Shown here one piece after another: positions 20,770-43,430 of a DNA stretch of 64,000 nucleotides. Origin of the DNA: Parvularculaceae bacterium (GTDB taxonomy: Bacteria > Pseudomonadota > Alphaproteobacteria > Caulobacterales > Parvularculaceae); assembly GCA_021776435.1 (NCBI GenBank), contig JAJFFW010000025.1, positions 1 through 64,000 on the forward strand. Reading direction: 5' to 3'. A model generated the notes under the pieces. It saw only the letters and a program-made list of their open reading frames with translations. It made no database searches and had not been told where the DNA came from. The stretch's first letter is position 1. Every line of letters starts with the position of its first letter. The translations under genes and the position numbers were made by a program.

Positions 20770-23040
20770 TCATTTCGGCGTCGCTTCAAGAGCTCGGATA
20801 TAGTCGACGACATTGTCCAGTTGCTCGTCTGACAGTGCGTTTTCCCAGGATGGCATGCCGACGCTTATACGTCCGTTCGCGACTGTCTGTTTGACGCCAT
20901 TCTTGCCGGTGAGCTGGACGTTGGAGTTATTGATAAGCCTTGGCCCTTCATTGCCGACACCGCCGTCACCGTGGCAGATCGCACAATTATTGGCGTAAAC
21001 CTCCTCACCCGCAAAAGAGGGCGCCAGCTTTGACGGGGTTTCTTTCGGTGTCACGGCGCTCCCTTCCAGGTCGAACTCAACCCGAGAGGCGAACACCGTA
21101 TCAATGCCATTGCGGCCGCCACCTCCACTGATGAAGGGGATGCCGTCACCGTCACTGTCGAGGTTACCGGCCCGGACAAGTTCGATGTCTTCACCGGTGA
21201 AGATATCTTCCGTCTGCATCAGGCCGCTGGTGTCGAGAGCTTGAACGAAGAACCGCTTGAACCGTTCGAGAAGTGCAACGTCTTCGTCGACGAGGATCAT
21301 TTCTCTGAGCGCACCCAGCATCGCGGCGACATCCTTGGGAGAGTAGGTGATATGGCTGTCGCCAGGCTCATTGCGGTAGACCCAGCCGGTGTCATCCCAG
21401 AAGTCCTCGTTCCAGGTCCTGCTGGTGCGGCGAGCGCCGTCCAGATAACGCCCGTCGGCGGTTGCGTCATAGGCGGCAAGAAGGGCTCTGATCGCAAAAG
21501 CTTGGCTCGTCGCATCGCGGCGACCGGCGGGAGTGCGGTTTTCGATATTGAAGTGTTGCGTATACGACCCATCTTCTGCTGCTATTTGCAGTAGTAAATC
21601 CGCCTGCTGACGGATCACGTTCATTGCTTTTTCACGGCGTTCAGTGTCCAGATCCATATACTTGGCGTATGAGTCGAGTGCGACCATTGCGAGGGAGAGA
21701 TCGTCGATATCAACATTCGCTTGGGCGCCGCTTCGTGGCGCCCATGTGGAAACGAGTGCGCCGTTCGACATATGTGTCTCCAGGATATTGTCGAACACCG
21801 TATTCGCCATGCCTTGAGCCAGCAGAGAATATTTTTGCTCCATAATGCTGCCATCGTTGGGGGTTTGGTACCCGAAAACCTGATTTGCATTGTCTCTGAC
21901 ACGGGGGTTGGCGAAGTTGAAAAACTCTGTCGTTGCCCATAACCAGGAAGCCTGGTCCCATAGGTGGCTCGTCGCATCCTTTACGGAAAAGTCCTGATGG
22001 CGGACGGGCAGGTCACCCATATAGACGAGCTCTGGGCGAATTTCATGGGGAAGGTAACGCACGCCGTCACTCGGCTTATAAGCGATTGGATTTATTCCCG
22101 TGAGCGATGGCTTGTCTTTGCCGAAAACAAATCTCCCCTTCATGTCTGAAGGGTCGGCAAAGAGCGATGACTTCGCAATCAGCATGGTCGAAACCGCCTG
22201 CAAGGTCAGCATGGATCCGCGAAATCCATCAGCGGCATTGTTACCGAGGAATACCTGTCCGGGAAAATCATCATCGGTGTGGTTACGGCGAAGGAAGAAT
22301 TTTGCCCACAACACCTTTTTCAACATGGTTTGTCCGACGCCGCCCATATCGATGGTTTTATCCATCGCGTCGTGAGACCACCATAAATGATCGAAGTCGT
22401 TGAGATAGGCCGCACGGCCAGTATCATCATCTTCGATGTTGATCTGGCGACCTAAACGCGGATCGGCAGAGCTGAATTCGAGCATGAGGGGAACGGCGCT
22501 GCCAAAGACCCGAGGAAGACCGGTGCGACTGAGATATGACCCCGCGACCTGCGTCAGCAGTATATCCTTGTTCGACATCGGAAGCTCACCGCGATTCCGG
22601 CCAAACTCGTTCAGTTTGGTCGCTGCATTCGCGCGTAGATCAACATACGGACCATGTATGATGCCAATTCCAGCTCGAGAATGGGCTGAAAGCGCCATCA
22701 AATTATATCGAGAATACCAGTAAGCTTCGACATTTGTTATGTATGACAGCTGTTTGTCATCTGCGATTGGTAGCGACGTCTCGCTTGCGCGGAGGAAAAA
22801 CTCCGTACCCGATAAGTATATTTCGTTTGCGAGATACATTCCTTCATTGGTGTTGAATCGCCTATCTGTCGCTGAACCTTTCAGACCGCTCTTCAATGAA
22901 GTAAGGTCGACTTGCTCATTGGCTTGAACAACTAAGACGGCCCGGCCGTCGGGCCAACGCCAGATGTCGGAAGCCATGGCGCCTCCCGCTAAGGCAACGC
23001 TTCCAGATAGTGCGGCTAGAAATTTTACGGTCGTTTTCAT
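20770..23040 (-). CDS. Exported helical-domain protein fused to a C-terminal cytochrome c
   Basis: A 756-residue protein with a signal peptide (cleavage likely after GGAMA). The large N-terminal part (about 25-640) is rich in Trp/Tyr and helical repeats, with a layout suggesting an alpha/alpha-toroid of the kind seen in sugar epimerases and six-hairpin glycosidases; I cannot name a family. A DSDGDG calcium-loop-like motif lies near residue 625. The C-terminus is a class I cytochrome c with CAICH (Cys686, Cys689, His690) and a probable Met729 ligand in VGMPSW. It starts 12 bases after the cytochrome-barrel gene with a GAGAGA ribosome site, so the two form an operon. The catalytic substrate is unknown. 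Confidence 0.7.
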   Translation of the reverse strand: MKTTVKFLAALSGSVALAGGAMASDIWRWPDGRAVLVVQANEQVDLTSLKSGLKGSATDRRFNTNEGMYLANEIYLSGTEFFLRASETSLPIADDKQLSYITNVEAYWYSRYNLMALSAHSRAGIGIIHGPYVDLRANAATKLNEFGRNRGELPMSNKDILLTQVAGSYLSRTGLPRVFGSAVPLMLEFSSADPRLGRQINIEDDDTGRAAYLNDFDHLWWSHDAMDKTIDMGGVGQTMLKKVLWAKFFLRRNHTDDDFPGQVFLGNNAADGFRGSMLTLQAVSTMLIAKSSLFADPSDMKGRFVFGKDKPSLTGINPIAYKPSDGVRYLPHEIRPELVYMGDLPVRHQDFSVKDATSHLWDQASWLWATTEFFNFANPRVRDNANQVFGYQTPNDGSIMEQKYSLLAQGMANTVFDNILETHMSNGALVSTWAPRSGAQANVDIDDLSLAMVALDSYAKYMDLDTERREKAMNVIRQQADLLLQIAAEDGSYTQHFNIENRTPAGRRDATSQAFAIRALLAAYDATADGRYLDGARRTSRTWNEDFWDDTGWVYRNEPGDSHITYSPKDVAAMLGALREMILVDEDVALLERFKRFFVQALDTSGLMQTEDIFTGEDIELVRAGNLDSDGDGIPFISGGGGRNGIDTVFASRVEFDLEGSAVTPKETPSKLAPSFAGEEVYANNCAICHGDGGVGNEGPRLINNSNVQLTGKNGVKQTVANGRISVGMPSWENALSDEQLDNVVDYIRALEATPK

Positions 23041-23052
23041 AGCTAATCTCTC

Positions 23053-24612
23053 TTACTGGAAAAAGCTTGTTGCAAATGTATTGGTGATCCCGAACCGAAT
23101 TACGTATTCAGGTGAAGGGCCCAGCCGGGGTTGGTCTACACGGTACAGTCCACTGAGCGTTGCCCGGAAGAGAGGGTTGGGGCTCCAGATAAAACTGCCG
23201 CCGACAAGTTGCGTTGTCCCCCCGGTGAAGGGGGGGCGCGGCATGGCGACAAAGCCGCCCATGCCATTGGGAACAGCGAAGAGGCCATCATAGGAGTCTT
23301 CTTGCTGATGCTTCGCGATATAGGAAAGGTCAATGGAAAGCTGATCGCCAACCACTGGCTTGACCACGGTCAAGAACGTTGTCCAGCGATCGCCTGGATC
23401 GACACCGTCGTCGGCGGGTCGGATTTCATACAAACCGCCCACATGAATAGCGCCGCGGCCGATGAATGTGCGGTCTTCCAATATTCTGGTGCCAAACAGA
23501 CCAAAGGCGCCGCCAACTGTTCCGATGCCGGGTTGGAGCGCAGACGGTAACCGTCCGTCATTGGAGAACCGCCTAAAGGTCCCATCTGCGCTGCCCATGA
23601 TCGGTGCGCCGGTTTCATCGAGTGCAGGCAGCGGTAAAAGTCCGTTTCCCATAGGCGTACTTACTGTCGTGCGCGAGTCAAAGCGCTCATGATTCGATCC
23701 TGTAGGAATGCTGAGGCTCGCGACGCCGGCGACGCCAAAGGGGAAATTCCCCTGGTCGATGAATTTCTTTTTGGCGAAAATGCTGATGTCGCCGAGCTTG
23801 AGGGTGTTTCCCTGGGGAAATACCGAAATGGGCGTCATGAAGGCGGGGTTGAGTTCCGCGTCTATGCTTGAATCGACCAATGGTATGTTGAGCCTCAATG
23901 TCACGTTGTTATCAAGACCGAGGAAAGCATCGAAGTCATAGAAGCGACGCTTAACATTGAGGTCGACAACACGGGCGCCAAATTGTGCCTGGCCGGCGAA
24001 GTCGTCTTCGTTGATTTCAGCAACATCCCTGAACGTTACGCCAATCCGAGCCGCCCCTGGCGGTAATACGAACGATGGCTGGGTGAACGCAGGTTGAAGC
24101 AACGGAGGAATGAATGTCTGGATTTGATCTTGAAGTGAATGGCGTTGCTCATCCGTATAGGATCGTTCCGTTCCGATATCGAGGTAAGCATTTTCAATGG
24201 ATTCAGGATTGAGATCCGGTGGGTTTGAGATCAGCCCATTTGTCACCTTAGCAACTGCAGGCGCCGCTTTTTCTCCAGACGATTGCTCCAGCAGGTAGAA
24301 AACCAAGTGTGCACGCTCTTCGTCGTTGAGGCCCATATTGGGCATCTGAGTGCCCGGCTTTACGGCTTCGGGGTCTTTCAACCATGTGAAGATCCACTCA
24401 GCGTTATAGCGATCCGCGACCGTATCGAGAGCAGGACCGAAATCGCCGCCTTCGCCGTTGATGGAGTGACAACTGCTGCACCCTTTTTCGTTGAAGAGTT
24501 CAGCGCCAGGCGCGTGTGATTGTGCGTGAGCGACGCCGGGCAGGAGTAGAACACCTGCGACGCCAGTTGTTAACGCCAGTTTTAAGAGAGAGTTATGAGT
24601 TTCAGACCGCAT
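23053..24612 (-). CDS. Cytochrome c fused to an outer-membrane beta-barrel
   Basis: A 519-residue protein. It has a signal peptide to about residue 30 (GVAHAQ), a monoheme class I cytochrome c at about 33-112 with CSSCH (Cys45, Cys48, His49) and a Met ligand in PGTQMP (Met90), and a Pro-rich linker. About 350 residues of beta-strand-like sequence follow, resembling the MetA-pathway phenol-transporter barrel family (LKLGDISIFAKKKF, LSIPTG). The C-terminus FATSFFQ is aromatic. A heme domain joined to an outer-membrane pore recalls Cyc2 iron oxidases in architecture, though the sequence is not obviously Cyc2. It is the first gene of a two-gene operon and divergent from pseudoazurin. Electron transfer across the outer membrane is inferred. 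Confidence 0.72.
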   Translation of the reverse strand: MRSETHNSLLKLALTTGVAGVLLLPGVAHAQSHAPGAELFNEKGCSSCHSINGEGGDFGPALDTVADRYNAEWIFTWLKDPEAVKPGTQMPNMGLNDEERAHLVFYLLEQSSGEKAAPAVAKVTNGLISNPPDLNPESIENAYLDIGTERSYTDEQRHSLQDQIQTFIPPLLQPAFTQPSFVLPPGAARIGVTFRDVAEINEDDFAGQAQFGARVVDLNVKRRFYDFDAFLGLDNNVTLRLNIPLVDSSIDAELNPAFMTPISVFPQGNTLKLGDISIFAKKKFIDQGNFPFGVAGVASLSIPTGSNHERFDSRTTVSTPMGNGLLPLPALDETGAPIMGSADGTFRRFSNDGRLPSALQPGIGTVGGAFGLFGTRILEDRTFIGRGAIHVGGLYEIRPADDGVDPGDRWTTFLTVVKPVVGDQLSIDLSYIAKHQQEDSYDGLFAVPNGMGGFVAMPRPPFTGGTTQLVGGSFIWSPNPLFRATLSGLYRVDQPRLGPSPEYVIRFGITNTFATSFFQ

Positions 24613-24883: not shown

Positions 24884-24966
24884 TGCGCACTTGCTGGAAA
24901 TTTAACCAGTGTTAAGTGGGCTCCACGAATTAAACCGAATGAATACATCCGAAATTGGAGACCGAT

Positions 24967-25416
24967 ATGCGTACGTTTGTTCTAAGTCTTTTGTTTAGTC
25001 TCTTCGCAACTAGTCTTTTTGCGGAAGAAATCGTCGTTGATATGTGGTCGCTTGATCCCGCCACGCAGGAAAAGAACAGTTTTAATTCTGGCGTCGTCAT
25101 GATCAATAAGGGCGATACAATCGTCTGGAAGGCGCAGCAGCCGGGCCATAATGTAGAATTATTGACAGGCGCCGTTCCTGAGGGTGTTGATAAATTCCGT
25201 TCAGGATTCGACAAAGAAATCAGATACACCTTCGACACACCCGGTGTATATGCTTATAAATGTCTGCCACATTATGGTCTTGGCATGCTGGGTTTGGTCG
25301 TTGTCGGAAACGACGTTTCCAATCTTGAAGCCGTGAAAGCTTTTAAATTTCAAGGAATGGCGTCGAAGCGTGCACAAGCGCTTTTAACGCATCTGGATGA
25401 AATGCTGGCAAAATAG
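24967..25416 (+). CDS. Pseudoazurin (type 1 copper protein)
   Basis: A 149-residue exported blue copper protein. A 19-residue signal peptide ends SLFAEE. Copper ligands are His61 (PGHN), Cys99 (YKCLPH), His102 and Met107 (GLGM). Subtracting about 21 residues for the leader gives positions 40, 78, 81 and 86, exactly the classical pseudoazurin set. Such proteins shuttle electrons in the periplasm, for example to nitrite reductase; no denitrification genes are here. The start is ATG 24967 with GGAG at good distance (a TTG at 24955 is in frame). Divergence from the cytochrome fusion operon suggests joint regulation. Confidence 0.92.
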   Translation: MRTFVLSLLFSLFATSLFAEEIVVDMWSLDPATQEKNSFNSGVVMINKGDTIVWKAQQPGHNVELLTGAVPEGVDKFRSGFDKEIRYTFDTPGVYAYKCLPHYGLGMLGLVVVGNDVSNLEAVKAFKFQGMASKRAQALLTHLDEMLAK

Positions 25417-25894: not shown

Positions 25895-28800
25895 CTAAAA
25901 ATCTTTTTTCCAGTTCGCGGAGATGGTTTGATCGCCATCCTGTTTTATTTCTGTCTCAACGGCGATTGAATTGGTGATTTCATACTGAATACGCACAGAA
26001 CCGTTTTGACCTTGAGCGTCCTGAGTTGCTGAAACGAAGAGTTTGTCCGCAACATATTTGCCGACAGTAAGCGCCCCCCCGCCGCGTTCAGGGTCAATGT
26101 CGAAATTCAGCAGATCAAGTCGAAGGGCTTGACGAACAGACCCAGTCGCGCTTTTGCCGCCGAACGGGCCGACACCGCTGAGAGCTGCGAGAGCCTGGGC
26201 GGCCTGAAGGGATTCCAACGCAGTGAGTTCTTGAGCAGGTTTGCCAAATAACATGAACGCTAAGATGTCTTCGGTCGGCAGAACGGGGTTGGATTGCAGA
26301 GAAATTGTTGGTGAGGTTGTGCGGCCTGAAATCGCAATGATTGCGGTCATACCATCAACGGTTTGGTGTTCTGCTCTGAGCGTGATTAAGGGATCGTTGG
26401 CGACAAGGCGATCAAAAACGATTTTCCCAGAAACAAGATTGAAACGGCGCCCGGAAAAATCAAACCAGCCGCGCCTTAAATTCAACTCGCCGATAACAAC
26501 TGGGTCCTGCGCGTCACCTGTCAATTGCACATCTACGCGCCATTCACTTTCAATGCCGCGCCCACGAACGAAAACTCTGTCATCCGCTTGAATTTCAACG
26601 TCGAAGGTAAGCGGCGGTGTCGGTGCGTTGAATATCACACTCGGCTCGCCTTCATGAATGTTCACAACATCAATATCTACGAGCCCGGTATCTTTCGGTG
26701 AAATGATATCGGCGTTAAGCTCATTGACGATGATATCGCCGGTGGTTGTAATAGCGTCGAGGGGACCTTCGATCCTTATACTACCTGATGCTGTTGCGGA
26801 TGAGACAGGTCTGGCTGATACCCTCACGCGATCCAATGTAAGGTCCGCTTTAATCGTCGGTGTATCGTCAAGTGTTAATACGCCAGCGAGTTTGAGAGTG
26901 TCATCGCCAGACTGGTTCACGCCTCGTCCGCCGCCTGTAAAAATAATGTTTATTATGTCGGATTCTTTTGTGGTGTGCGCTTGTGCATGTAGACCAATGA
27001 GGTTTAGACCAGAACGCAATTCCGTATAGGCGCCATCGTCAATATTAATTTTTCCTGATATCTGAGGTTCGCTGATCGTCCCATCCAGTGCAAAACTGGC
27101 GTCGACGGCGCCCTCTAAACTCTGGAGGTCGGGTGGTAGATAGGTGGCGATCGTTGTCAGATCGCCCTTATAGCTGCCGACTCCATCGAGTTCGCCATCT
27201 ATCTGGACACCAAGCTTTTCCCCTTTTGTTAGAGTGGCGGGAAAAGTCATGTCGAAATGAACACCGCCCACAGAGTCAGCATTTTTCACATGAAAACGCT
27301 CCCCGTCCCAAGAGAAAGCGCCGTTAATTTCAACACTCCTGTCTTGTGTGAGGAGGGATTGCGCCAGGAATTCACCCCGCGCGGGGATTTCACGATCTGT
27401 ATCGAGATCGAAGTGGAATGAAAGCAAACCGGCGGCGCCAGGTATGGGCGCCCTGTTTACATCCGCCGTAGCGCGCCAGTGTGTATTTGATATCGCGCCG
27501 TTAAATACAATAACCCCGGATTCACCCCATTGCGCGTTCAGATTTTCGATACCGATTTCTTGATCAACAGTAATGTGTGCTGGCGCCGTCAGTTCGGCTT
27601 TTTGGTTATTTATATGAATTTCAAACGCGTTGAGATCGATCATTAACGGTCCACTCAGATCAGCGGCCGCGGCAATTGAGAGATCCTGGATCTGTGGCAT
27701 GTTCGGAAAGGAGAGTCCGTCAGAGCTCGCATTAATCATCAGGCCGGTCGCTGGGCCCTTTGCTGTGGCTTCCAACCTATCGATTGAAAAATCATTGACG
27801 ATCAGGTTTTCGGCGGTGATCGACAGATCGCTTGTGTCGCTGGCGCCCACGAGCGTGCCTTCAATCGAAAACACACCGGTGGCGGTTAAACCGGGCAGCG
27901 GGCGGGCATTTTCTGTACCTTCATATCGGAGATTCAGCGATACAGCCGTATTGGCAGGGTCGTAAGCGCCATCACCTGTGAGAGCAAAACCAGCCCCTGT
28001 AAACAGAAATTGCTGTACGCCGATGTGGCCCGTCTTCGTTGAGCGTAGTGTCAATTCAAACTGATTGTCGCCTTCGATGGCGTGTCCCGTAATTTCACCT
28101 GTGGGCAGGCTTGGAAGCCCGGCGAGCGCGACTTCAATCGTTGCAGCGGGAATAGGTTGACCGCTGATGCGCATGCCTGGCGCATCAATGTCAGCCGATA
28201 ACGTTAAGCGATTAAGCGGCCCTGAAAGGTCAATTTGAGCAAAGAGCGGGTTATCAATCAAAAGATCAGGGTTAAGCGCGGTGACAAAATCGGCATCGAC
28301 GGACGTCGCCCCCTTCATCTGGAACGCATCTTTAGCAATGTCATAAACGGCTTGGCCTTTAAATCCGGTCCCTTTGGCGATCTGCAGGTCAAGTGAATTG
28401 AGAGCAATTAAATTACTGCTATCGATATTGAGCAATCCCGTCAGGCTTGCGCCGCCTTGAAGTGCTCTGTGCGCCATGTCGTTTGGCTCCAGGCTTGCCT
28501 TGAGAGTCCCCGACAGATGATCCTGAAAATTTGTGCGAGCGTCGTTGATTGATGCGCTAGCCAACATCCCGGTGAGCGAAGCATCCATTGTATAATCACT
28601 GCGTACACGCTTTAAAATAGCCCTAAGTGCGACTTGCGGGCCCAGATATTTTTGAATTTCGGGGCGGTAATTTGAAGAAAAGCGTGTTGTGAACGATAGG
28701 GATATCATGTCTGGAAAACGGTTCTCACTCGTCCAGTCCACGTTACCATCGACCTCGCCCAGTTTGCTTGCAAAATGCGTGATCGTTAATCTCCCCCCCT

Positions 28801-29698
28801 CGGTCTTTGGCTCAATTCGAGCAATGAGAGTCACTTCTGGACCAAGTTCGGCTGTGAGATCCTTGAAATGTTCGCCGGGGAAGACTGAAGTTTCGATGTC
28901 GACAAACTTGACGTCTTTCAGGTTACTGGAAATGTTGGCCTCAAGGTGACCATAGCGACCAGCCTCTGTCGAAATTTCTACAAATCCGCTTGATAGCGGG
29001 CTGTCTGCTTGTGCGGAGAAATAAACCGATCCATCAGAATCAATGAGCTTTGCGATCAAGCCGTCCTTTGCAGAGGCGACAATGATGTCAGAATAGAGAT
29101 GATCGTTTTCCGGGCTTATTTCAACGGCGGCTTCAATCGAGTCTCTCCCATCCTTACTTTTTGCATTTAAAGCCGCACGCAGAGCGTGTCCGCCCATTGT
29201 GAGATTGCTCGTGCCGTCAACACGAAACGCGCTACCCATTATGGCGGCGTCAATCATAAAATTCGTAACCGTCAGATCTCTGATCTGAACATGCGGTAAA
29301 TCGTCAGGGAGTGTGAACGTTGAGGGAGCCGGCGTGTCTTCAACACTTTTTGGCGGCGATGCAAGGAGTGTGACGTCTTCAACACTCACCCGGTCAATAT
29401 CAATGCGTTTGGCAAACAGGAACACCGGATGCCAGTCTAGTTCAACGCGTCTTACCGTGAGCCAAGGTGCGCCGTTTTCTGAAAAAATCATATCTTTCAG
29501 AATCAGATGCTGGGGCAAGGCTCCTGATAAGGCGCCAATTTGCATCTCTCCGCCCAATTCGCCTTCCAGTGCGGATTCAATCTGGCCCTTAATCAGATTG
29601 CGACCGGTTGGCGTGTGAAAAAGCGTGACAGCACTCAATGCAACGAATGCGACAAACGCGCCTAATGAGATGAGTGATATAAGAGCACCGCGTCGCAT
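25895..29698 (-). CDS. tamB: Translocation and assembly module subunit TamB
   Basis: A 1267-residue AsmA-like envelope-spanning protein. It has one N-terminal membrane anchor (LISLISLGAFVAFVALSAVTLF), about 1000 residues of repetitive beta-rich sequence expected to form a long hydrophobic groove, and the C-terminal DUF490 domain (about 920-1267, including GELNLRRGWFDFSGRRFNL), ending in Phe. TamB works with TamA in outer-membrane protein insertion and, by more recent work on the family, phospholipid transport. Its ATG overlaps the tamA stop (TAATG). Length is normal. Confidence 0.93.
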   Translation of the reverse strand: MRRGALISLISLGAFVAFVALSAVTLFHTPTGRNLIKGQIESALEGELGGEMQIGALSGALPQHLILKDMIFSENGAPWLTVRRVELDWHPVFLFAKRIDIDRVSVEDVTLLASPPKSVEDTPAPSTFTLPDDLPHVQIRDLTVTNFMIDAAIMGSAFRVDGTSNLTMGGHALRAALNAKSKDGRDSIEAAVEISPENDHLYSDIIVASAKDGLIAKLIDSDGSVYFSAQADSPLSSGFVEISTEAGRYGHLEANISSNLKDVKFVDIETSVFPGEHFKDLTAELGPEVTLIARIEPKTEGGRLTITHFASKLGEVDGNVDWTSENRFPDMISLSFTTRFSSNYRPEIQKYLGPQVALRAILKRVRSDYTMDASLTGMLASASINDARTNFQDHLSGTLKASLEPNDMAHRALQGGASLTGLLNIDSSNLIALNSLDLQIAKGTGFKGQAVYDIAKDAFQMKGATSVDADFVTALNPDLLIDNPLFAQIDLSGPLNRLTLSADIDAPGMRISGQPIPAATIEVALAGLPSLPTGEITGHAIEGDNQFELTLRSTKTGHIGVQQFLFTGAGFALTGDGAYDPANTAVSLNLRYEGTENARPLPGLTATGVFSIEGTLVGASDTSDLSITAENLIVNDFSIDRLEATAKGPATGLMINASSDGLSFPNMPQIQDLSIAAAADLSGPLMIDLNAFEIHINNQKAELTAPAHITVDQEIGIENLNAQWGESGVIVFNGAISNTHWRATADVNRAPIPGAAGLLSFHFDLDTDREIPARGEFLAQSLLTQDRSVEINGAFSWDGERFHVKNADSVGGVHFDMTFPATLTKGEKLGVQIDGELDGVGSYKGDLTTIATYLPPDLQSLEGAVDASFALDGTISEPQISGKINIDDGAYTELRSGLNLIGLHAQAHTTKESDIINIIFTGGGRGVNQSGDDTLKLAGVLTLDDTPTIKADLTLDRVRVSARPVSSATASGSIRIEGPLDAITTTGDIIVNELNADIISPKDTGLVDIDVVNIHEGEPSVIFNAPTPPLTFDVEIQADDRVFVRGRGIESEWRVDVQLTGDAQDPVVIGELNLRRGWFDFSGRRFNLVSGKIVFDRLVANDPLITLRAEHQTVDGMTAIIAISGRTTSPTISLQSNPVLPTEDILAFMLFGKPAQELTALESLQAAQALAALSGVGPFGGKSATGSVRQALRLDLLNFDIDPERGGGALTVGKYVADKLFVSATQDAQGQNGSVRIQYEITNSIAVETEIKQDGDQTISANWKKDF

Positions 29699-31497
29699 TA
29701 AAATGCCTGCCCGAGAGAGATGAAGAATTGAAAATCTGAGTCAGTTATACGTTTGTCGAGCGGAAATGCGATATCCGCACGAAGTGGGCCTATCGGTGTA
29801 AAATATCGAACACCTCCACCAATACCGACGAAATAATCTCCTTCAAATTCTGGCGTTCTCTTTGAAGACACCGACGCTGCATCGATAAAACCCGCCAGTT
29901 GAATTTTCTTGTTCATGCGGACTCGCCCCTCAAAAGCGCCTTCGATCACTGAGCGGCCGCCGGTTGGATCATTATCTGCGCTGAGTGGTCCGGCTTCCTG
30001 AAACCCAAAACCCCGCACCGATCCTCCACCGCCTGCAAAATATCGTTTGTTCAGTGGAAGATCTGCAAGCGACGTATTAAAACTTGCTCCCAGTCGTGAC
30101 CGGAAGGCTGCTGTCAAACGCTTATCAGGCCCGAATGTAACGCGAGTGCGGACAAGAGCTTCAGCTTGCGTGAAGCTGTCAGTACCAGTGTAAGGCCTTA
30201 CAGTCAAAGAGGCGCGCACGCCTTTCGTCGGATCGAGAAGGCTGTCTTCATTGTTCCACAAAAGGGACAATGGCGTTGATACGAAATAGGTGCGTTCTTC
30301 ACGACCATCCTCGCGAATATTAGAGGTTTCGAGAGTCATCCCGGCTTGGGTTACAAGTTTGTCATCAATTAATTGTTTTTTGAGACCGCCGGACAAGGTC
30401 AGTGATCGGGCGTTAAAGGCTTCCGTGGTTTCGTTTAAGAACTTGAATTGCGTATATCCCGAGCCGTGAAAACGGGGCAGAGGTTTGTTAAAATTGAATG
30501 TTGCAGACTGTTCGATATTGGAACCTTCAAACTCGATACGCAGGCGTTCTTCTTTATGAAAAATATTTCGATTTTCAAAAAATATGCGTCCGCCAGGGCC
30601 TTCTGTGGTGGAGAAAGAAACACCTCCGCCGATCGTTTTATTCTTGCGTTCTGTAAGCGTGACCATGACGGGGGCCGTTCCCGTTTTATCCGGCGTGCCT
30701 GGGGCGACATCGATCGAAGTGAATAATCCAGTTGCGGCCAATCGATCACGATAGGCGACGAGTTTGGAGCGTTCGAAAATTTCGCCTTCCTTCCAGGCGA
30801 CGAGCTTTTCAAGGTGCTTGGGATTCGTGCGGGTTAATCCGGTATATATTGGGCCGCCGAAGCGCGCGTGCGGACCACTTTTGAAAACAAAATTCACTGT
30901 CGCGGTCCCCTGGTCCAGATCTGCGCGCGCCTGACGTGAGATAATTTCCGCCGCAGGATAAGCTCTCTCCCATAAGGCGTTTAAGAACGAACGTTGCAGG
31001 TCGCGTAAGGCTGCGCCCGAAGCATTGCCGTTCGGTATAATGTTAACCTGTTCAAGGCTTTGTGGGCGTGGATCAGCTACGGCGTCCTGCGGTGCGTCGG
31101 CGTAAAGAATATGATAATCGGTAATTTTGAACGCTGGGCCTGTCTCAATCGTGAAAGTAATCTGCCAGCCTTCGTGTTCGACCCTTTCTTCAAGGCGGAA
31201 TTTGGCGTTACCATTGTAATACCCGGCGGCTTTCATTGCCTCTTTAAAGGCGCCGACGTCGTTACTGGCGGCGCGTCTTAATGCGGCCGCCGTGGGCAGA
31301 TTGCGCGCCATGGTTTTTAACTCTGAGATCATTTCCAGTTTTTCGCGCAAAGGCTTTGGCGCACCTTCGATGGATACCGAATAGCCGGATGTCTGAGCGT
31401 GTGCGTTTGCGGTGAGGAGGCACACAAACTGACACAAAAGACCGATCCATATTCTGATACGCTGAACTCTCAACCCTTGCTCGCTCTCATTGCTCAC
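29698..31497 (-). CDS. tamA: Translocation and assembly module subunit TamA
   Basis: An Omp85-family outer-membrane protein of about 599 residues. It has a signal peptide (IWIGLLCQFVCLLTANAHAQ), POTRA-like repeats to about residue 250, and a 16-strand barrel with GGVSFSTTEGPG, RYFAGGGGSVRGFGFQ (the conserved barrel loop near residue 500) and a terminal strand ending GQAF. The start is uncertain: GTG 31497 has GGATGG upstream and places the leader at the N-terminus. ATG codons further out (to 31653) would run into the divergent sulfotransferase start. It is operonic with tamB by a one-base overlap. Confidence 0.9.
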   Translation of the reverse strand: MSNESEQGLRVQRIRIWIGLLCQFVCLLTANAHAQTSGYSVSIEGAPKPLREKLEMISELKTMARNLPTAAALRRAASNDVGAFKEAMKAAGYYNGNAKFRLEERVEHEGWQITFTIETGPAFKITDYHILYADAPQDAVADPRPQSLEQVNIIPNGNASGAALRDLQRSFLNALWERAYPAAEIISRQARADLDQGTATVNFVFKSGPHARFGGPIYTGLTRTNPKHLEKLVAWKEGEIFERSKLVAYRDRLAATGLFTSIDVAPGTPDKTGTAPVMVTLTERKNKTIGGGVSFSTTEGPGGRIFFENRNIFHKEERLRIEFEGSNIEQSATFNFNKPLPRFHGSGYTQFKFLNETTEAFNARSLTLSGGLKKQLIDDKLVTQAGMTLETSNIREDGREERTYFVSTPLSLLWNNEDSLLDPTKGVRASLTVRPYTGTDSFTQAEALVRTRVTFGPDKRLTAAFRSRLGASFNTSLADLPLNKRYFAGGGGSVRGFGFQEAGPLSADNDPTGGRSVIEGAFEGRVRMNKKIQLAGFIDAASVSSKRTPEFEGDYFVGIGGGVRYFTPIGPLRADIAFPLDKRITDSDFQFFISLGQAF

Positions 31498-31644
31498 GAC
31501 GGCGCCATCCGACCGCCCCAACGCATTAGCAGATTTTGTTAACCACAATCTGAATCGCCGCCACCGTGACGCATGAAGCTGGCAAAATCCGGCCGTCTGC
31601 GTTAAAGCGCATCTCATGAAATAAGCGGATTTTGAGGTAATGAA

Positions 31645-32796
31645 ATGGCTCACCCGTTGAGTGGCGCAAATTTGGGCACTTTGGCGAAGGTGGTCGGTCG
31701 ATCTGGACTGCCGTCAAAACCTCTGTCCGCTACAGCGATCGGGCTCGCCGCCCTCGCGCGTTGGCCGTTTTCGACGGCCGAACGCCTGGTCATGGAAAGT
31801 CGCCTGCCTGCCGCCGCAGACTTATCGGCCCCGGTCTTTATTTTGGGACATTGGCGGTCCGGCACCACACATCTTTATAATATCATGTGTAAAGGTGAGG
31901 CATGGGGCTTCGTGCCGCCGGTCGCCACTGGATTACCGTGGGATCTCTTTGGCCTGGCGAGAGTGTTCAATTCTGTTCTTGAGCGCGCTTTGCCGGAACA
32001 TCGCTATATCGACAATATTCCAGTGACTCCAGACAGTCCTCAAGAAGACGAGATTGCCGTCGCCAATATGTCGGACCTGTCCTTTTACCACGGAATTTAT
32101 TTTCCCCGCACTTTCGCTGACCATATCCGTCGCGGGTTGTTTTTCGACGGGTGTTCGGATGATGAGATCGACAAGTGGAAGGAACGGTTCACTTATCTTC
32201 TGCGCAAATTATATATGTATCAGGATGATAAACCGCTTTTGATCAAGAATCCCGTTTATACGGGGCGCGTCGCCCTTCTAAGGGAGATGTTTCCGCAGGC
32301 GAAGTTTATACATATTCATCGTAATCCGTATGAAGTATTCGCCTCCATGCGGAATTTCTATGCAAAGCTTCTCAATCAGTTTGCTTTGCAGAACTACGAG
32401 CATGTGGATATCGATGAAACGATTTTGTCTGTCTATGATCGTATGATGCATACGCTAGAGCGTGATATGGCTGGACTGCCCGAAGACGTTTATCTCGAAA
32501 TGCGCTATGATGAGCTTGATCACCGGCCTATGGAATCGGTGGAACGCATCTATTCAACGCTCGCATTGCCTGATTTCGATATGGCGCGGCCAAAGTTTGA
32601 AACCTATCTTGCATCTGTCGAAAGCTTTAAGAAGAATAAGTTTGCCTATTCTGATGAGGCTGCGGCAAAGGTTGAAAGCCGCTGGCGGTATTTTGTTGAT
32701 AAATGGGGCTATGAACGACCAGGGAACACTCAGGATACTTCGAATGAAGCCGGGGAAAGCGAAGGAATCGCGAATGACCGAGGCGCAAAAACCTAG
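31645..32796 (+). CDS. Sulfotransferase family protein
   Basis: A 383-residue PAPS-dependent sulfotransferase. The 5'-phosphosulfate loop is GHWRSGTTHL (about residue 69) and the 3'-phosphate region is KFIHIHRNPYEVFASM (about residue 218). The N-terminus is mildly hydrophobic but not a clear signal peptide. The gene overlaps the next by 23 bases, and that one overlaps hpnA by four, so the three are one transcript. The acceptor is unknown; the hopanoid neighbours make a lipid acceptor worth considering, as inference. Confidence 0.82.
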   Translation: MAHPLSGANLGTLAKVVGRSGLPSKPLSATAIGLAALARWPFSTAERLVMESRLPAAADLSAPVFILGHWRSGTTHLYNIMCKGEAWGFVPPVATGLPWDLFGLARVFNSVLERALPEHRYIDNIPVTPDSPQEDEIAVANMSDLSFYHGIYFPRTFADHIRRGLFFDGCSDDEIDKWKERFTYLLRKLYMYQDDKPLLIKNPVYTGRVALLREMFPQAKFIHIHRNPYEVFASMRNFYAKLLNQFALQNYEHVDIDETILSVYDRMMHTLERDMAGLPEDVYLEMRYDELDHRPMESVERIYSTLALPDFDMARPKFETYLASVESFKKNKFAYSDEAAAKVESRWRYFVDKWGYERPGNTQDTSNEAGESEGIANDRGAKT

Positions 32797-33865
32797 AGCA
32801 GTCACTCTCGGCCCGATACTTATCGCCTTGATGCTTTCCGGCTGCGCTCAGGAAGTGAGCGCACCCACCGCCTATTCACTTCAGCAATGTCGCAGGGTTG
32901 AGCTTCGGGATTCCGAAATCGGTGAAAGTGTTCGTGGTGCGGAAGATTTGGCGTTTGACGCAAAAAGCGGACAACTCTTTGTCTCTGCCTACGACCGCCG
33001 GGAAACCGAGAGAGCCGTCCAAAAGAATGCGCAGTCCATCCCTGAAGGTGGGGTTTATTCTATCGACCTTGCGGCGTTGCTTTCGGTTGGGTCAGAGCCA
33101 GTCAATGTCCGTTCCCTCATCCGTCGTGGCGACGTCGAAGGCGGTCTTCGCCCACACGGCTTGTTCTACGAAGGGCGGACGGGCGAGATTATTTTTATCA
33201 ATCGCGGCTATCGACGTATCAAAGGGCAATGGGGTATAAATCCACGCATGGAACGTATCGGCGCTAATGGGGGGGCGTTTCTTGGGGAGTCGGTCGAAGC
33301 GAATTGCGCTGCAAACGACGTTCTCTCGTTAAACGAAAATGTGCTGATGACGTTCGATCATGGCGCGTGTGATTGGCGCGCCGGACTTGAAGATGTTTTC
33401 TCCTTAAAAAGAAGCGGGGTTGCGGCAGTAGGTGTTGGGGCGATATTTGACCATGCGCTCTTTGCGAATGGAATCGTGCAAACATTAGGTGGCGATATCA
33501 TCGTTGCGGCGACGCGTGAAAAAGCGCTGTTAAAAATGGTTGAAGTGGAGGGTGATTTGACCCTCGTTGAACGCGTTTTGCTCCCTGGCGGGCCTGATAA
33601 TCTGACTCTATCGTTCGATGGCTCGGTTATTGCGGCTGTTCATCCCTCAATGTTGCGCATAGGCTTTCAACGGAAGTTCGGATTGGGCCGGGCGCCATCA
33701 CGCATTGTCAAGATTGATCCTGATCAAAATGATATTACCATTCTTTTCGATGATCTGCATGGAGAATACTTTTCCGCTGCAACCGTAGCAATAGAAACGC
33801 GTGAGGCCCTTATTCTCGGCTCTGTGATCGAAGACGGTCTTTTGGTCTGCGAGAAATCTGAATGA
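32774..33865 (+). CDS. Lipoprotein with beta-propeller (SMP-30/arylesterase-like)
   Basis: A 363-residue protein with a leader ending LMLSGCAQ, a good lipobox. The body has repeated strand patterns and GLRPHGLFYEGRTGEI, GPDNLTLSFDG and similar blade motifs, like paraoxonase/arylesterase and SMP-30 propellers. Start ATG 32774 has AAGGAA seven bases upstream and lies inside the sulfotransferase gene. The stop overlaps the hpnA start (ATGA). It is probably exported and membrane-anchored. The substrate is unknown; a lactonase or esterase activity is possible. Confidence 0.68.
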   Translation: MTEAQKPRAVTLGPILIALMLSGCAQEVSAPTAYSLQQCRRVELRDSEIGESVRGAEDLAFDAKSGQLFVSAYDRRETERAVQKNAQSIPEGGVYSIDLAALLSVGSEPVNVRSLIRRGDVEGGLRPHGLFYEGRTGEIIFINRGYRRIKGQWGINPRMERIGANGGAFLGESVEANCAANDVLSLNENVLMTFDHGACDWRAGLEDVFSLKRSGVAAVGVGAIFDHALFANGIVQTLGGDIIVAATREKALLKMVEVEGDLTLVERVLLPGGPDNLTLSFDGSVIAAVHPSMLRIGFQRKFGLGRAPSRIVKIDPDQNDITILFDDLHGEYFSAATVAIETREALILGSVIEDGLLVCEKSE

Positions 33866-34854
33866 GCGGGAAGACGCTTGTCACGGGCGGGGCAGGGTTT
33901 GTCGGCCGTCACCTCGTCGAAAGGCTGAGGGCTAAAGGCGAACACGTGCGCGTTTTTGACGTGGCGCCAAGGGGTGATGCAGACGATATACAAGGTTCTG
34001 TTACGGACGCCGACACCGTTGCGCGCGCCATGACAGACATTGAAACGGTGTTTCATCTCGCAGGAAATGCACAATTATGGGCGCGTGATAACGGCGCATT
34101 CGATGAGGTTAATCACCGGGGAACGCAGATTGTCGCTGAGGCCGCGCGCGTGGCCTCCGTGAAACGGTTTGTCTATTGTTCAAGTTTGACAACGCTTGTC
34201 GGCCAACGCACCCCGATAGGCCCGTCGATTGCCGATGAGAAAACACGACTTGAACCCAGCGATATGTTGGGACCTTATCCACGGTCGAAACTTCTGGGAG
34301 AGCAAGCGGTCGAGGTCGAAGCCGATTTAGGACTCAATATCGTTATCGCCATTCCGACCGAACCGTTGGGGCCGGGCGATGAAAGCTTCACCCCGCCCAC
34401 TCAAATGATTTTAGATTTTCTAAATGGTAAAACGCCCGCTTACATTGACTGTATGCTGAACTTTGTGCCGGTAGAAAATCTCGCGGACGGTCTCATCGCG
34501 GCTCGTGACCGTGGCCGGGCGCGGGGGCGATACCTGCTTGGTGGAGAGAACGTTCCCATGCGGTCCCTTCTGGAGCGACTGGAAAAAATGAGTGGGCGTT
34601 TGATGCCGAAAACATGTCTACCTTATGGGGTCGCACTCGCCGCAGGGGTTGTTGATACGGGTTGTCTCTCGCGGATCACCGGTAAACCTCCAAAGGCGCC
34701 GCTGACCGGGGTGCGTCTCGCCGGCCGGCAAGTAACATTTTCAAGCGATAAGGCGGCGCGCGAACTGGCATGGTGGGCTAACTCTGTTGATGAGGCGCTC
34801 GTCGCGACGCTGCGATGGTTTGAGGAAAAGGGGTATCTGCAACCGAAGGGCTAA
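33862..34854 (+). CDS. hpnA: Hopanoid-associated sugar epimerase HpnA
   Basis: A 330-residue extended SDR enzyme. It shows VTGGAGFVGRHLVERL at the N-terminus, VFHLAGNAQLW, YCSSLTTL and the catalytic YPRSK. Similarity plus the flanking hpnB-hpnH genes support the HpnA assignment, a family tied to hopanoid side-chain sugar chemistry whose exact reaction is not settled. It is translationally coupled to the propeller lipoprotein (ATGA) and converges on hpnB with a four-base overlap. Confidence 0.8.
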   Translation: MSGKTLVTGGAGFVGRHLVERLRAKGEHVRVFDVAPRGDADDIQGSVTDADTVARAMTDIETVFHLAGNAQLWARDNGAFDEVNHRGTQIVAEAARVASVKRFVYCSSLTTLVGQRTPIGPSIADEKTRLEPSDMLGPYPRSKLLGEQAVEVEADLGLNIVIAIPTEPLGPGDESFTPPTQMILDFLNGKTPAYIDCMLNFVPVENLADGLIAARDRGRARGRYLLGGENVPMRSLLERLEKMSGRLMPKTCLPYGVALAAGVVDTGCLSRITGKPPKAPLTGVRLAGRQVTFSSDKAARELAWWANSVDEALVATLRWFEEKGYLQPKG

Positions 34855-36005
34855 TAGCTGCGTCCTTTCCATTGGCCGCCTTTACCCCGCAAATGCCGGA
34901 ATGCCGAAGCCGCTGTCATCAATGTGTATAATAGCGCTGCGAAGGGCAAAAATATGGCTTTCCATTGCGCCTGTTCATAGAGCCGCATGGTCGGACGAAA
35001 AGTGAGCGTCATCAATGACCAGGTGATCAGTGCGCTTATCGCGGCGATGGCATGGCCGTGCCAGGGCCAACTCAAAAATGTTAGAGGGGCGGCGAGATAA
35101 ACCAGCGCCATCCCAAGCATGGTCCCGAAAAGCAACACCCAGGAATTGTTTAATTGCGCGAAGGCGGTGCGCGTGACCATGTGCCACACAGAGCCAATCC
35201 GGCTATTGTCCCGCAGGCTGATAACTTCGTCTTTCGCAAGGCCAATCCAGATCGCATGCCCAGGCGGGACGCCTTTCATCTGTGCAGCAAGCGCACAGTC
35301 GTCGATCAACCGGTCTTTGATGGCCTTTATCCCGCCTGTGGACACAAGGACGTCACGACGCACCAACATGCACCCGCCAGCCGCTGCGGCGAGATCATTG
35401 GAGGGATCATTGGCGCGCGGGAAGGGGTAAAGCATCTGGAAGAAATAGATGAAGGCGGGGATCAACAATCCACCCCAAAACCCTCGCGCATCGAGGCGCG
35501 CCATAAGAGAGGTGAGCACAAGGTCATTGGCTTCCGCTTTCGCGACCAGACGACGCAGAGTATCAGGCTGGTGAACGATATCTGCGTCCGTGAATAAAAC
35601 ATAACGGGCATGAGGGCGGTCGTTCGCGGCGCGGTTGAGGCCGGTATGGAGCGCCCAGAGTTTGCCGGTCCAGCCGGGTTCAAGTTTGGGTGCGTTCCCG
35701 AGAGAAAGTTTTCGCTCGCTGGTGTTGGCGGCTTCAGCAGCGAGCGCCGCCGTTCCATCCGTGGAATGGTCGTCGATAAGGATAACGGCAAACGCACCAG
35801 GATAGTCGCTTGCCAGATGGCTGAGAAGGACAGGTTGAATCGTCTCAGCCTCGTTCCGCGCCGGTATGATCGCAACCACCTCTGGCCAGATCTCGGGCTC
35901 GGGTGCTTCGTCAAGGTGTTCACTGGCCCGCCAAAACCCACTACGGGCGAATGTGAGGTAGACCCAGATGACGAGCGCCATGAAAGAGAGAGCAGTTGCA
36001 GCCAT
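34851..36005 (-). CDS. hpnB: Hopanoid-associated glycosyltransferase HpnB
   Basis: A GT2-family membrane glycosyltransferase of about 384 residues. It has an N-terminal membrane segment, AIIPARNEAETI, VILIDDHSTDGT, a DxD-like FTDADIVH, the RLIDDCALAAQ motif, and three or four C-terminal membrane helices. Sequence and context fit HpnB. The start is ATG 36005; a longer frame (to 36086) exists, but its extra N-terminus is not hydrophobic and crowds the hpnC promoter. It is transcribed away from hpnC and toward hpnA. Confidence 0.83.
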   Translation of the reverse strand: MAATALSFMALVIWVYLTFARSGFWRASEHLDEAPEPEIWPEVVAIIPARNEAETIQPVLLSHLASDYPGAFAVILIDDHSTDGTAALAAEAANTSERKLSLGNAPKLEPGWTGKLWALHTGLNRAANDRPHARYVLFTDADIVHQPDTLRRLVAKAEANDLVLTSLMARLDARGFWGGLLIPAFIYFFQMLYPFPRANDPSNDLAAAAGGCMLVRRDVLVSTGGIKAIKDRLIDDCALAAQMKGVPPGHAIWIGLAKDEVISLRDNSRIGSVWHMVTRTAFAQLNNSWVLLFGTMLGMALVYLAAPLTFLSWPWHGHAIAAISALITWSLMTLTFRPTMRLYEQAQWKAIFLPFAALLYTLMTAASAFRHLRGKGGQWKGRSY

Positions 36006-36171
36006 GACCGTTTGACTAAGCGCTTCCCCCCATGTTTGGAAAGGCCTGAAGAACAATTGGATCCATTTATCGGAATTGCACCCCAAAAGGGCTCAGGGGT
36101 ATTGGTTCCCGGTGTTTTCTTGTGGCAAGTCGATCTCCACTTTTCCGAAAAACGCTCTAAGGTGCGGTGCC

Positions 36172-37095
36172 ATGTCAGTAGCTGAAACCAAACATAAAGC
36201 AGACGGGACGGGGGCTTCAACGGGGTCGAGCCCGGAGACCCCATCAGGGAAGGGCGCGGGAGATGAGAATTTTCCGGTCGGCTCGTTTCTTTTGCCCAAA
36301 CACCTTCGCCCACATGTGGCGACCTATTACGATTTTGCGCGCGCGATCGACGATGTCGCTGACAATGGAGAGTTAAGCGCCGAAGAGAAAATTAAACGGC
36401 TCGAAGCCTTTGACGCTGTGCTCAAGGGCGAGGTCGGAAAAGATGAGGGCTTCGAAAAAGCCTCTGCGCTGCGCAAAAGTATGAGCGAAACGGGCGTCAC
36501 GACCAAGCATGGTTCAGACCTCGTCGCCGCCTTCGTCCAAGATGCTGTGAAGCTGCGTTATCAGACATGGGATGAGTTGCTAGGCTATTGCGAAAAATCT
36601 GCAAATCCGGTTGGGCGTTATCTTCTTGATCTGCATGGAGAGGAAAAATCTGCTTATAAATATTCAGACGCGCTTTGCACCGTTCTGCAGATTGTCAACC
36701 ATTTACAGGATTGCGGCGATGACAGGGACGAACTCGACCGCGTTTATTTAATTGGTGACTGGATGGATGAAGTCAGTGTCAAAGTTGAGGACATCGATAA
36801 ACCCGTACTTACGCCTGGTCTGCGTAATGTCGTCGATCGGATGCTTGACGGTTGTGAACAGTTGATGAGCGATGCACGCCTTTTGCCATCTTCCCTGAAG
36901 AGTCGCCACCTGGCTATGGAATCGGCGATCATTGTTAAGCTTGCGGCGCGATTGATAGTGCTCTTGCGCAAAGGGGATCCGTTGGCCACGCGTGTGGCGC
37001 TCACCAAGCTCGATTTTGCTGCAGCGGGCGCATTCGGCGCCGTCTGGGGTTTCTTCGCCGCCGGCCGAAACGCAAATCGCGGAGTGAAGCCGTGA
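36172..37095 (+). CDS. hpnC: Squalene synthase HpnC (hydroxysqualene synthase)
   Basis: A 307-residue trans-isoprenyl diphosphate synthase-like enzyme. Aspartate-rich motifs YDFARAIDDVADN (about residue 59) and QIVNHLQDCGDDRD (about 178) are present. In the HpnCDE route HpnC converts presqualene diphosphate to hydroxysqualene. I start at ATG 36172 (MSVAETK), with AAGG about 10 bases before; 96 bases of upstream frame look non-coding. Its stop overlaps the hpnD start by four bases. Confidence 0.9.
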   Translation: MSVAETKHKADGTGASTGSSPETPSGKGAGDENFPVGSFLLPKHLRPHVATYYDFARAIDDVADNGELSAEEKIKRLEAFDAVLKGEVGKDEGFEKASALRKSMSETGVTTKHGSDLVAAFVQDAVKLRYQTWDELLGYCEKSANPVGRYLLDLHGEEKSAYKYSDALCTVLQIVNHLQDCGDDRDELDRVYLIGDWMDEVSVKVEDIDKPVLTPGLRNVVDRMLDGCEQLMSDARLLPSSLKSRHLAMESAIIVKLAARLIVLLRKGDPLATRVALTKLDFAAAGAFGAVWGFFAAGRNANRGVKP

Positions 37096-37988
37096 GCAAG
37101 GAAGGCGCAAAAGATACGCCGCAAATTTCACTCGAAGAAGCGCACCGTCATGCAATCGAAACCGTAAAGAGGTCGGGCACGTCGTTCGCGTCTGGTATGC
37201 GTATTCTCTCGAAACCACGCCGAGCCGCGATGTACGGCATTTACGCGTTCTGCCGCGAAGTCGATGACATTGCCGATGACGATGCGCCGTTAGATGATAA
37301 ACACGCAAGGTTGACCGAGTGGCGTGTGGAAGTGGATCGGCTCTATGACGGTGCTCCGCAAACGCCAACGGGAGTCGCTCTGCTTGACCCTATTCATGAA
37401 TTTAGTCTTTCCAAGGACGAGTTTCTCTTGGTGATAGAAGGTATGGAGATGGATGCCGACGGCCCAATCGTCGCACCGAGTATGGAAAAACTACTCGCCT
37501 ATACGCGCCGGGCTGCGGGCGCGGTCGGCATGTTATCCATGCCGGTATTTGGCGCCCCGAAAACCGAAGCGGCAGATCGATTTGCACTTTCACTCGGGGA
37601 TGCTTTGCAGCTGACCAATATTTTACGCGATATTGCAGAAGACGCCGCCATTGGGCGGCTTTATCTCCCCCGCGACCTTCTTGAAAAGCACGGTGTTCCT
37701 CTCGATCCGGCTAAAATTATCGGCGCCACGGGGCTGCCAGGCGTATGTTGTGATCTTGCAGACATCGCACGGGAGAAATTCGCTGATGCGCGTGAAGCGT
37801 TACGGGAACTGGATTGGCGAACTGTGCGACCGGCGCTTTTGATGATGGGGGTTTACGAAGCTTATTTCAAAAGACTGGAACAACGGGGTTGGGACAATAT
37901 GGGCGTGCCGATTTCCATTTCAAAGTTTGAAAAATTGTTGATTTCGGTCCGTTACGCCCTTGCCCCACCGCTTGGCGTGGCCCGGTGA
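37092..37988 (+). CDS. hpnD: Presqualene diphosphate synthase HpnD
   Basis: A 298-residue enzyme joining two farnesyl diphosphates to presqualene diphosphate. Motifs are YAFCREVDDIADDDAP (about residue 51) and LQLTNILRDIAEDA (about 174). It starts with GTG overlapping the hpnC stop. A palindromic repeat of about 170 bases separates it from hpnE, which would otherwise be in the same tight operon. Confidence 0.92.
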   Translation: MSKEGAKDTPQISLEEAHRHAIETVKRSGTSFASGMRILSKPRRAAMYGIYAFCREVDDIADDDAPLDDKHARLTEWRVEVDRLYDGAPQTPTGVALLDPIHEFSLSKDEFLLVIEGMEMDADGPIVAPSMEKLLAYTRRAAGAVGMLSMPVFGAPKTEAADRFALSLGDALQLTNILRDIAEDAAIGRLYLPRDLLEKHGVPLDPAKIIGATGLPGVCCDLADIAREKFADAREALRELDWRTVRPALLMMGVYEAYFKRLEQRGWDNMGVPISISKFEKLLISVRYALAPPLGVAR

Positions 37989-38005
37989 CTCTATGCACGT
38001 CTTCC

Positions 38006-38177
38006 CGTGTCATCCCGGACGTTACATGCCTCAAAATTCCAAAGGAATTTGGCGAAGGCATGTTAGATCCGGGATCCAGAAGCGATACGCTTGGCGCCAA
38101 TCGTCCTTGGATCCCGGATAGCTCGAAAGCGCATCGAAATCGAAGATTTCGGCGCTTTCGGCTTCCGGGATGACACG
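38006..38177. repeat. Composite inverted repeat between hpnD and hpnE
   Basis: The outer ends CGTGTCATCCCGGA and TCCGGGATGACACG are complementary. Inside lie further nested pairs: ACATGCCT/AGGCATGT, GATCCGGGATCCA/TGGATCCCGGAT, and CGAAAGCGC/GCGCTTTCG around a CGAAATCGAAGATTTCG core. It is a dispersed palindromic element inserted within an otherwise compact operon. Confidence 0.82.
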
Positions 38178-38209
38178 GATGGTTTTTTGAAGGGTGGACT
38201 GCACGAGAG

Positions 38210-39499: not shown

Positions 39500-39501
39500 T
39501 C

Positions 39502-40200
39502 ATGCCTGATTCATTCCTTGGTATCGTCTGCGGTCTCAAATCCGAGGCTGATGTCGTACGCAAGGCCATGCCGGGCCCGCGTATCCGCATTGCTGTTTCC
39601 GGCGCTAATGCAGAACGCGCTGAAGCGCTCGCCCATCAAATGTGCGCAGAGGGCGCACGGGCGATTGTCAGCATCGGCGTCTCTGGCGGGCTGGCGCCAG
39701 GTTTGTCTCCCGGCGCATTATTGATTGGTGAAGAAGTCGTCACTGCTGGCGGTGATGTCTGGGCGTCCAATCTCGCTATTCTCCAAGCGTTTGAGGATGA
39801 CGCCCTGAGTTTGGGTGCGCGACGAGTGACGATTTTTGGAGCAGATGAAATCATCGCCTCCGCCGACGACAAAAAGAGACTTTATGAGACCTATGGCGCC
39901 GCGGCGGTGGATATGGAGAGCCACGGCGCGGCGCGCGCCGCCGGCCGCGCCGGCGTTCCCTTCGCCGCGATCCGGGCGATCGCCGATCCGGCCAGCCGGG
40001 CGTTGCCGCCGGCTGCGCTCAACGCCGTTGCGCCCGATGGGAGCACACGAACGCTTGCCGTACTCGGCGCCTGCGCGCGCGATCCCGGTCAATTTCCGCA
40101 GCTGTTACAGCTTGGCGCGGATAGTGGCGTGGCGCTGAAAACCTTACGCCGCAGCCTCGCAAGGCTCCTTGTCCACCTTCTTACCCTCGATCTTGGTTAG
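39502..40200 (+). CDS. hpnG: Adenosylhopane nucleosidase HpnG
   Basis: A 232-residue nucleoside-phosphorylase-like protein that removes adenine from adenosylhopane. It shows SIGVSGGLAPGLSPGALLI and VDMESHGAARAAGRAGVPFAAIRAIAD, the phosphorylase-type substrate loop. ATG 39502 is the likely start (TTG 39496 is in frame). The last 19 residues are read from DNA that also codes the end of hpnH on the other strand (57-base overlap). The stretch from about 39900 to 40080 is clearly GC-richer than the rest of the locus. Confidence 0.85.
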   Translation: MPDSFLGIVCGLKSEADVVRKAMPGPRIRIAVSGANAERAEALAHQMCAEGARAIVSIGVSGGLAPGLSPGALLIGEEVVTAGGDVWASNLAILQAFEDDALSLGARRVTIFGADEIIASADDKKRLYETYGAAAVDMESHGAARAAGRAGVPFAAIRAIADPASRALPPAALNAVAPDGSTRTLAVLGACARDPGQFPQLLQLGADSGVALKTLRRSLARLLVHLLTLDLG

Positions 40201-41295: not shown

Positions 41296-41342
41296 ACCTG
41301 ATTCTCCAGTTCACGCCGCGAAGGCGTTTAGTCTTATTTCAA

Positions 41343-43361: not shown

Positions 43362-43430
43362 ACATTAAACATTGAGAGAAATTGCCGGGCGGTTTAAGGA
43401 CCAGCCCCAGCTATGTTACGGAGTCGCCTG

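Follow-up and report, generated by a model that had tools for sequence, protein, structure and literature searches.

Among described proteins, Cyc2 is one of the closest in plan to the protein reported here. Both carry a signal peptide, a single N-terminal CXXCH and a fused C-terminal outer-membrane barrel in a chain of over 365 aa (PMC8406198), and in both the heme is expected at the periplasmic mouth. A sequence-only reading of the window (the whole 64,000-nt stretch of DNA that was analyzed) had named Cyc2-type iron oxidases as the only widely known proteins of this plan; this was incomplete, since Cyc572 of Leptospirillum is also described as a cytochrome-porin fusion (PMC10654088). The published barrel similarity of Cyc572 is to PorB-type porins, and its comparison with the window protein is by description only.

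The suspicion in that reading that the barrel is not that of Cyc2 was borne out. A motif unique to Cyc2 just upstream of CXXCH, AXPXFAR[Q/K][T/Y] (PMC8406198), is absent from the window protein, where SHAPGAELFNEKG precedes CSSCH. Also absent is the Cyc2 PXL four residues past CXXCH; the nearest equivalent is PAL (residues 60-62), ten after H49. Cyc2 pairs a short cytochrome with a 16-stranded OprP-like (phosphate-porin-like) barrel, whereas the window protein has a full class I domain and a predicted 12-stranded fold of the FapF/COG4313 type; the gene neighbors differ as well. Cyc2 identity was rejected because motif, PXL spacing and barrel type all fail, leaving a likeness in architecture only.

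Other pores offer partial likenesses. Channels of the COG4313/PF13557 type (Pput2725, 4RL8) share the predicted 12-stranded fold, and where they carry their plug, ahead of strand 1, the window protein has a conserved segment; but it falls below the Pfam cutoff, carries a heme domain and has redox gene neighbors. FapF (5O65, 5O67) is the best fold match and has a periplasmic N-terminal domain joined to its plug; the position of its coiled coil would be taken by cytochrome c in the window protein. Unlike FapF, barrels of the window family have no N-terminal coiled coil and no adjacent FapD, C39 peptidase or amyloid subunits. MtrAB/MtoAB/PioAB, Uet and PCC also combine a barrel with c-type cytochromes at the outer membrane, but the barrel here is smaller and there is no decaheme or larger wire. 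Hemes per protein number one in the window and at most three in a paralogous cluster of the same genome, against about ten or more in porin-multiheme complexes. Identity with such a complex was rejected because no cytochrome of that size adjoins the barrel, and the Uet system because it requires an undecaheme cytochrome. The window protein is filed as a cytochrome-barrel fusion, apart from Cyc2, Fap and the porin-multiheme complexes.

The fused protein and its barrel

Features of the fused gene are as follows.

23053..24612, minus strand: 519-aa fused protein with signal peptide, cytochrome c, linker, putative plug segment and predicted outer-membrane barrel (open reading frame, Pfam)
24523..24612, minus strand: signal peptide, residues 1-30; cleavage between GVAHA and QS, placed by eye from the sequence
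24286..24513, minus strand: class I monoheme cytochrome c domain, residues 34-109 (PF00034, Cytochrom_C, E=6.3e-12; NorC-like match, 2.2e-7)
24466..24480, minus strand: CSSCH heme-attachment motif, residues 45-49, single copy (sequence)
24346..24348, minus strand: candidate distal heme ligand, Met90 region of PGTQMPNMG (residues 86-94), aligned with NorC
24214..24285, minus strand: linker, residues 110-133 (about), from alignment to relatives
24055..24213, minus strand: conserved pre-barrel segment, residues 134-186 (QIQTFIPPLLQPAFTQPSFVLPPGA), from conservation in the alignment
23074..24054, minus strand: outer-membrane beta-barrel, residues 187-513 (about), predicted 12-stranded fold (relatives' alignment, a relative's model)

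The gene begins with an ATG at 24612 and its stop ends at 23053. The sequence-only reading had placed this locus exactly, but it missed the strand, and also the partner gene for the toroid, the blue copper protein and the paralogous cluster discussed below. Its central claims, that one protein joins a cytochrome c to an outer-membrane barrel and that the former is a class I monoheme domain with CSSCH and PGTQMP (residues 86-91), hold and are supported by the Pfam match and by Foldseek E-values down to 2.4e-13 for a relative's model. The fused protein has the CXXCH and downstream Met ligand within the Pfam domain that characterize class I cytochromes c; judged from the alignment of QMPNMGLNDEE with NorC, a Met in the region of PGTQMPNMG is the probable distal ligand. 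The closest matches of this cytochrome domain are to domains of the two diheme cytochromes in the paralogous cluster (E=4e-9 and 3e-8).

Residues 110-133 are taken as the fusion junction because the mature barrels of relatives start about there. The C-terminal part after the linker (about 385 aa) lacks a separate signal peptide and could therefore be exported solely within the fusion. GC and GC3 are similar in the cytochrome part (0.544 and 0.569) and the barrel part (0.545 and 0.587), and thus give no hint of a chimera. The fusion is known from one genome only, an assembly of 142 contigs, which leaves room for a cytochrome gene wrongly joined to a barrel gene during assembly. Such an artefact is barely credible given a single unbroken reading frame of uniform composition, a junction that falls precisely where relatives' mature barrels begin, and a barrel part that would be stranded without the fused signal peptide.

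The barrel is 39-44% identical to three exported heme-free relatives (39% to one in a Saprospiraceae genome, 42-44% to a paralog in its own genome), all three of which end in phenylalanine. A C-terminal phenylalanine is typical of outer-membrane barrels. Against PF13557 (Phenol_MetA_deg) the window barrel scores 14.9 bits and the paralog 19.1, with a cutoff of 22, so the phenol-transporter type proposed in the sequence-only reading is not reached by sequence score. That proposal was nevertheless right in fold, because the AF2 model of the Saprospiraceae barrel matches FapF (Foldseek E=2.4e-13) and also Pput2725, a COG4313 channel (E=3.4e-11), each 12-stranded. The family is predicted to share this 12-stranded COG4313/FapF-type fold, an assignment made for the window barrel on a 39%-identical relative whose model is of moderate confidence (pLDDT 54.8 overall and roughly 60-83 across most strands, with 13 strands assigned in a meander). 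A model of the whole fused protein, built from three sequences, had a pLDDT of 32.7 and was left out of the fold search. The amphipathic-strand count of the window barrel was reached by 43 of 500 shuffles and is only suggestive; that of the Saprospiraceae barrel is stronger (11 of 500).

Where a plug would precede strand 1, the family has a strongly conserved segment, QIQTFIPPLLQPAFTQ..FVLPPGA, which has a pLDDT below 50 over most of its length in the Saprospiraceae model. It also conserves PTG, a motif noted in FapF. In FapF and COG4313 channels the lumen is plugged by the segment that precedes strand 1 (PMC4493636, PMC5557850), and, by likeness to these channels, residues 134-186 may form a pore plug.

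A barrel and toroid module

The genes around the fused gene, and a related cluster elsewhere in the genome, are listed here.

20770..23040, minus strand: second gene, 756 aa, with signal peptide, toroid-like domain and C-terminal cytochrome c, 12 nt downstream of the fused gene
20788..21012, minus strand: C-terminal cytochrome c of the toroid protein (CAICH, residues 686-690; PF13442 E=5.5e-14)
24955..25416, plus strand: pseudoazurin-like blue copper protein, divergent from the fused gene (PF00127 E=7.5e-15; TIGR02375 102 bits, cutoff 109.85)
Contig C78, L037 5398-15840: paralogous electron-transfer cluster in the same genome

The pseudoazurin-like gene likely starts at the ATG at 24967. Genes flanking the module (an FAD oxidoreductase and TamB/TamA-like genes) appear unrelated; the TamB- and TamA-like pair lies directly past the cupredoxin gene (25895-31653), apparently by coincidence.

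The cluster on contig C78 encodes a diheme cytochrome c, a 926-aa toroid protein with cytochrome c (36% identical overall to the window toroid protein), a heme-free barrel of 504 aa, a triheme cytochrome that includes an EB_dh domain, a second diheme cytochrome and a membrane protein resembling CydA; upstream on the opposite strand are Usp/PCP_red, a radical SAM protein and a flavoprotein of the Amino_oxidase family. The whole resembles an undescribed respiratory branch. About 8-10 kb from it on the same contig (L115 5461-11425), a Fap-like functional amyloid set was recognized by eye, comprising a barrel-like protein whose N-terminal region resembles a coiled coil, a protein similar to C39 peptidases and two or three N/Q-repeat proteins.

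Two strict peptide patterns drawn from the barrel, run against about 85,000 species genomes, found two relatives, in the Saprospiraceae MAG OFTM40 and the KSB1 MAG OFTM153. Under those patterns the carriers are the window genome (two copies) and these two MAGs only; since the scan relied on two patterns, the true number may be higher. The two MAG loci have the same order: a cupredoxin/CarboxypepD_reg protein comes first and is followed by a heme-free barrel (429 and 434 aa, respectively, ending in ...TF) and a heme-free toroid (662 and 674 aa). The Saprospiraceae locus additionally has a separate cytochrome c, which is the closest match of the cytochrome fused to the window toroid (E=1e-10). 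In each of the four loci the barrel gene adjoins the toroid gene and c-type cytochromes and/or cupredoxins lie alongside, and the barrel is heme-free in every copy other than the window's, where cytochrome c domains are fused to barrel and toroid alike. We describe here as new a rare module made of a barrel and an (alpha/alpha)-toroid protein, to which a cupredoxin and separately encoded c-type cytochromes are usually added.

The full-length fused protein had no match in the scan of about 85,000 genomes and matched only cytochromes on plasmids; full-length searches within order and phylum were flooded by ordinary cytochromes c. Searches with the barrel or the toroid gave no further barrels among 61 other members of the family and 288 other genomes of the class, nor did searches of other genomes from the phylum of the KSB1 MAG (81), from the order of the Saprospiraceae MAG (198) and from the family of the latter (119). 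One clear distant toroid emerged from these family, class, phylum and order genomes.

The window toroid domain has no Pfam or NCBIfam match above cutoff. Its assignment as (alpha/alpha)-toroid-like comes from a weak C5-epim_C match and profile similarity to cellobiose 2-epimerases, and the family alignment holds many invariant polar residues. These features suit the main rival to an electron-transfer role, in which the barrel would take up a hydrophobic or aromatic compound or an oligosaccharide and the toroid would be a periplasmic enzyme or binding protein whose electrons the cytochromes just accept, the whole forming a kind of periplasmic dehydrogenase system. The barrel fold suits it too: COG4313 channels are thought to take up hydrophobic molecules and conduct ions poorly (PMC4493636). 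We consider organic uptake unlikely, given that the toroid matches are below cutoff, that no dehydrogenase cofactor domain is recognized and no catabolic genes adjoin, and that toroid relatives keep redox company of their own. One distant toroid, in an alphaproteobacterial genome (the window's class), has a multiheme cytochrome next to it, together with an FTR1 iron permease; another, on a plasmid of the Gram-positive Anoxybacillus amylolyticus, adjoins a propeller/CCP-MauG/cytochrome c protein and by eye has a signal peptide with a lipobox-like LASAC. Distant toroids of Aeromonas have no adjacent cytochrome and were counted against the electron-transfer reading. The toroid protein belongs to an uncharacterized envelope family that reaches into Gram-positive bacteria; members lie at L110 9923-11923, L109 8872-10932 and L108 7780-9804, from Aeromonas (one on plasmid pMCR5) and the Anoxybacillus plasmid.

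A proposed electron-transfer role and its rivals

An electron-transfer role for the fused gene is supported indirectly, by its redox neighbors and by the paralogous cluster. Because the window copy fuses cytochromes that elsewhere are separate genes, it can be argued that barrel, toroid and cytochrome act together. Domain order, export signal, the barrel fold of the family, gene pairing at four loci and the separateness of heme units elsewhere all come from sequence or computation; we infer insertion in the outer membrane, the position of the heme, the direction of electrons and the donor. Our main reading, with a probability of roughly 0.4, is a plugged 12-stranded outer-membrane channel with a periplasmic N-terminal class I cytochrome c, working with the co-transcribed toroid protein and the nearby cupredoxin. 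The module is most likely an envelope electron-transfer module, Cyc2-like in its presumed working and of independent origin.

A folded cytochrome is too large for a 12-stranded pore, and the outer membrane is too thick for direct tunneling to a heme on its periplasmic side. Direct conduction across the membrane is therefore unlikely. Instead, a small reduced donor would enter the pore and be oxidized at a heme held against the periplasmic mouth, and the electron would leave the fused heme for that of the toroid protein or for the cupredoxin, and from there enter the respiratory chain. The size of the pore also bears on a FapF-like channel that would secrete the toroid or a fibre as polypeptide, with the cytochrome as a periplasmic handle. 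The closest solved structures are those of the amyloid exporter FapF, but a folded heme protein would not fit through, no C39 peptidase or amyloid-repeat genes adjoin any barrel of the family, and a separate Fap-like set apparently exists elsewhere in the window genome (by eye); we find such secretion very improbable.

Electrons might also run outward: from quinol they would pass through the CydA-like protein and the cytochromes encoded at the paralogous locus and end on an acceptor outside the cell. The quinol-oxidase-like subunit and the many cytochromes of that cluster would fit, but the window locus has no quinol-linked membrane protein, only monoheme proteins and a pseudoazurin-like cupredoxin, which makes this direction distinctly unlikely.

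For the inward route of the main reading, the favored guess for the donor is dissolved Fe(II) or Mn(II). The KSB1 MAG comes from Oslofjord subsea tunnel biofilms, a site of iron- and manganese-oxidizing biofilms (PMC10732223), and the same origin is inferred for the Saprospiraceae MAG because it has the OFTM label series too. Resting on this habitat and one FTR1 neighbor, the iron/manganese link is a lead, and its biofilm part amounts to two MAGs from one site with many coexisting metabolisms. The FTR1 permease that follows one distant toroid relative could also suggest that the module oxidizes incoming periplasmic Fe(II) for capture or safety, not respiration; this is quite improbable, as the linkage occurs in one distant genome only and no iron permease or EfeO/B-like gene stands beside the four barrel loci. 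No Cyc2-type motif was found in the window genome (one spacing tested), which counts for the main reading. No RuBisCO large subunit was found there either, which counts against it: CBB autotrophy, common in metal-oxidizing lithotrophs, is not supported.

Possibly the fused protein represents a novel type of pore for gathering electrons. In its fullest form the idea is an independently evolved, Cyc2-like electron-uptake pore in a single polypeptide, built on a COG4313/FapF barrel, belonging to an undescribed barrel-toroid-cupredoxin-cytochrome module that is spread over three phyla and serves, in iron/manganese biofilms, to oxidize metals or some other donor from outside; the heme might also gate the plug. 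Taken as a whole, we regard this as tentative and rather doubtful. If real, it would mean that evolution has fused a heme to an outer-membrane pore on more than one occasion, starting from unrelated barrels. It would also provide a marker of metal or surface oxidation invisible to surveys based on Cyc2 and Mto, and a natural case of a pore plug linked directly to a redox center.

Farther along the window, at 33862-44318, hopanoid and isoprenoid biosynthesis genes were recognized by eye (hpnA, hpnB-like, hpnC, hpnD, hpnE, hpnG-like, hpnH, ispH and a prenyl synthase), an ordinary set.
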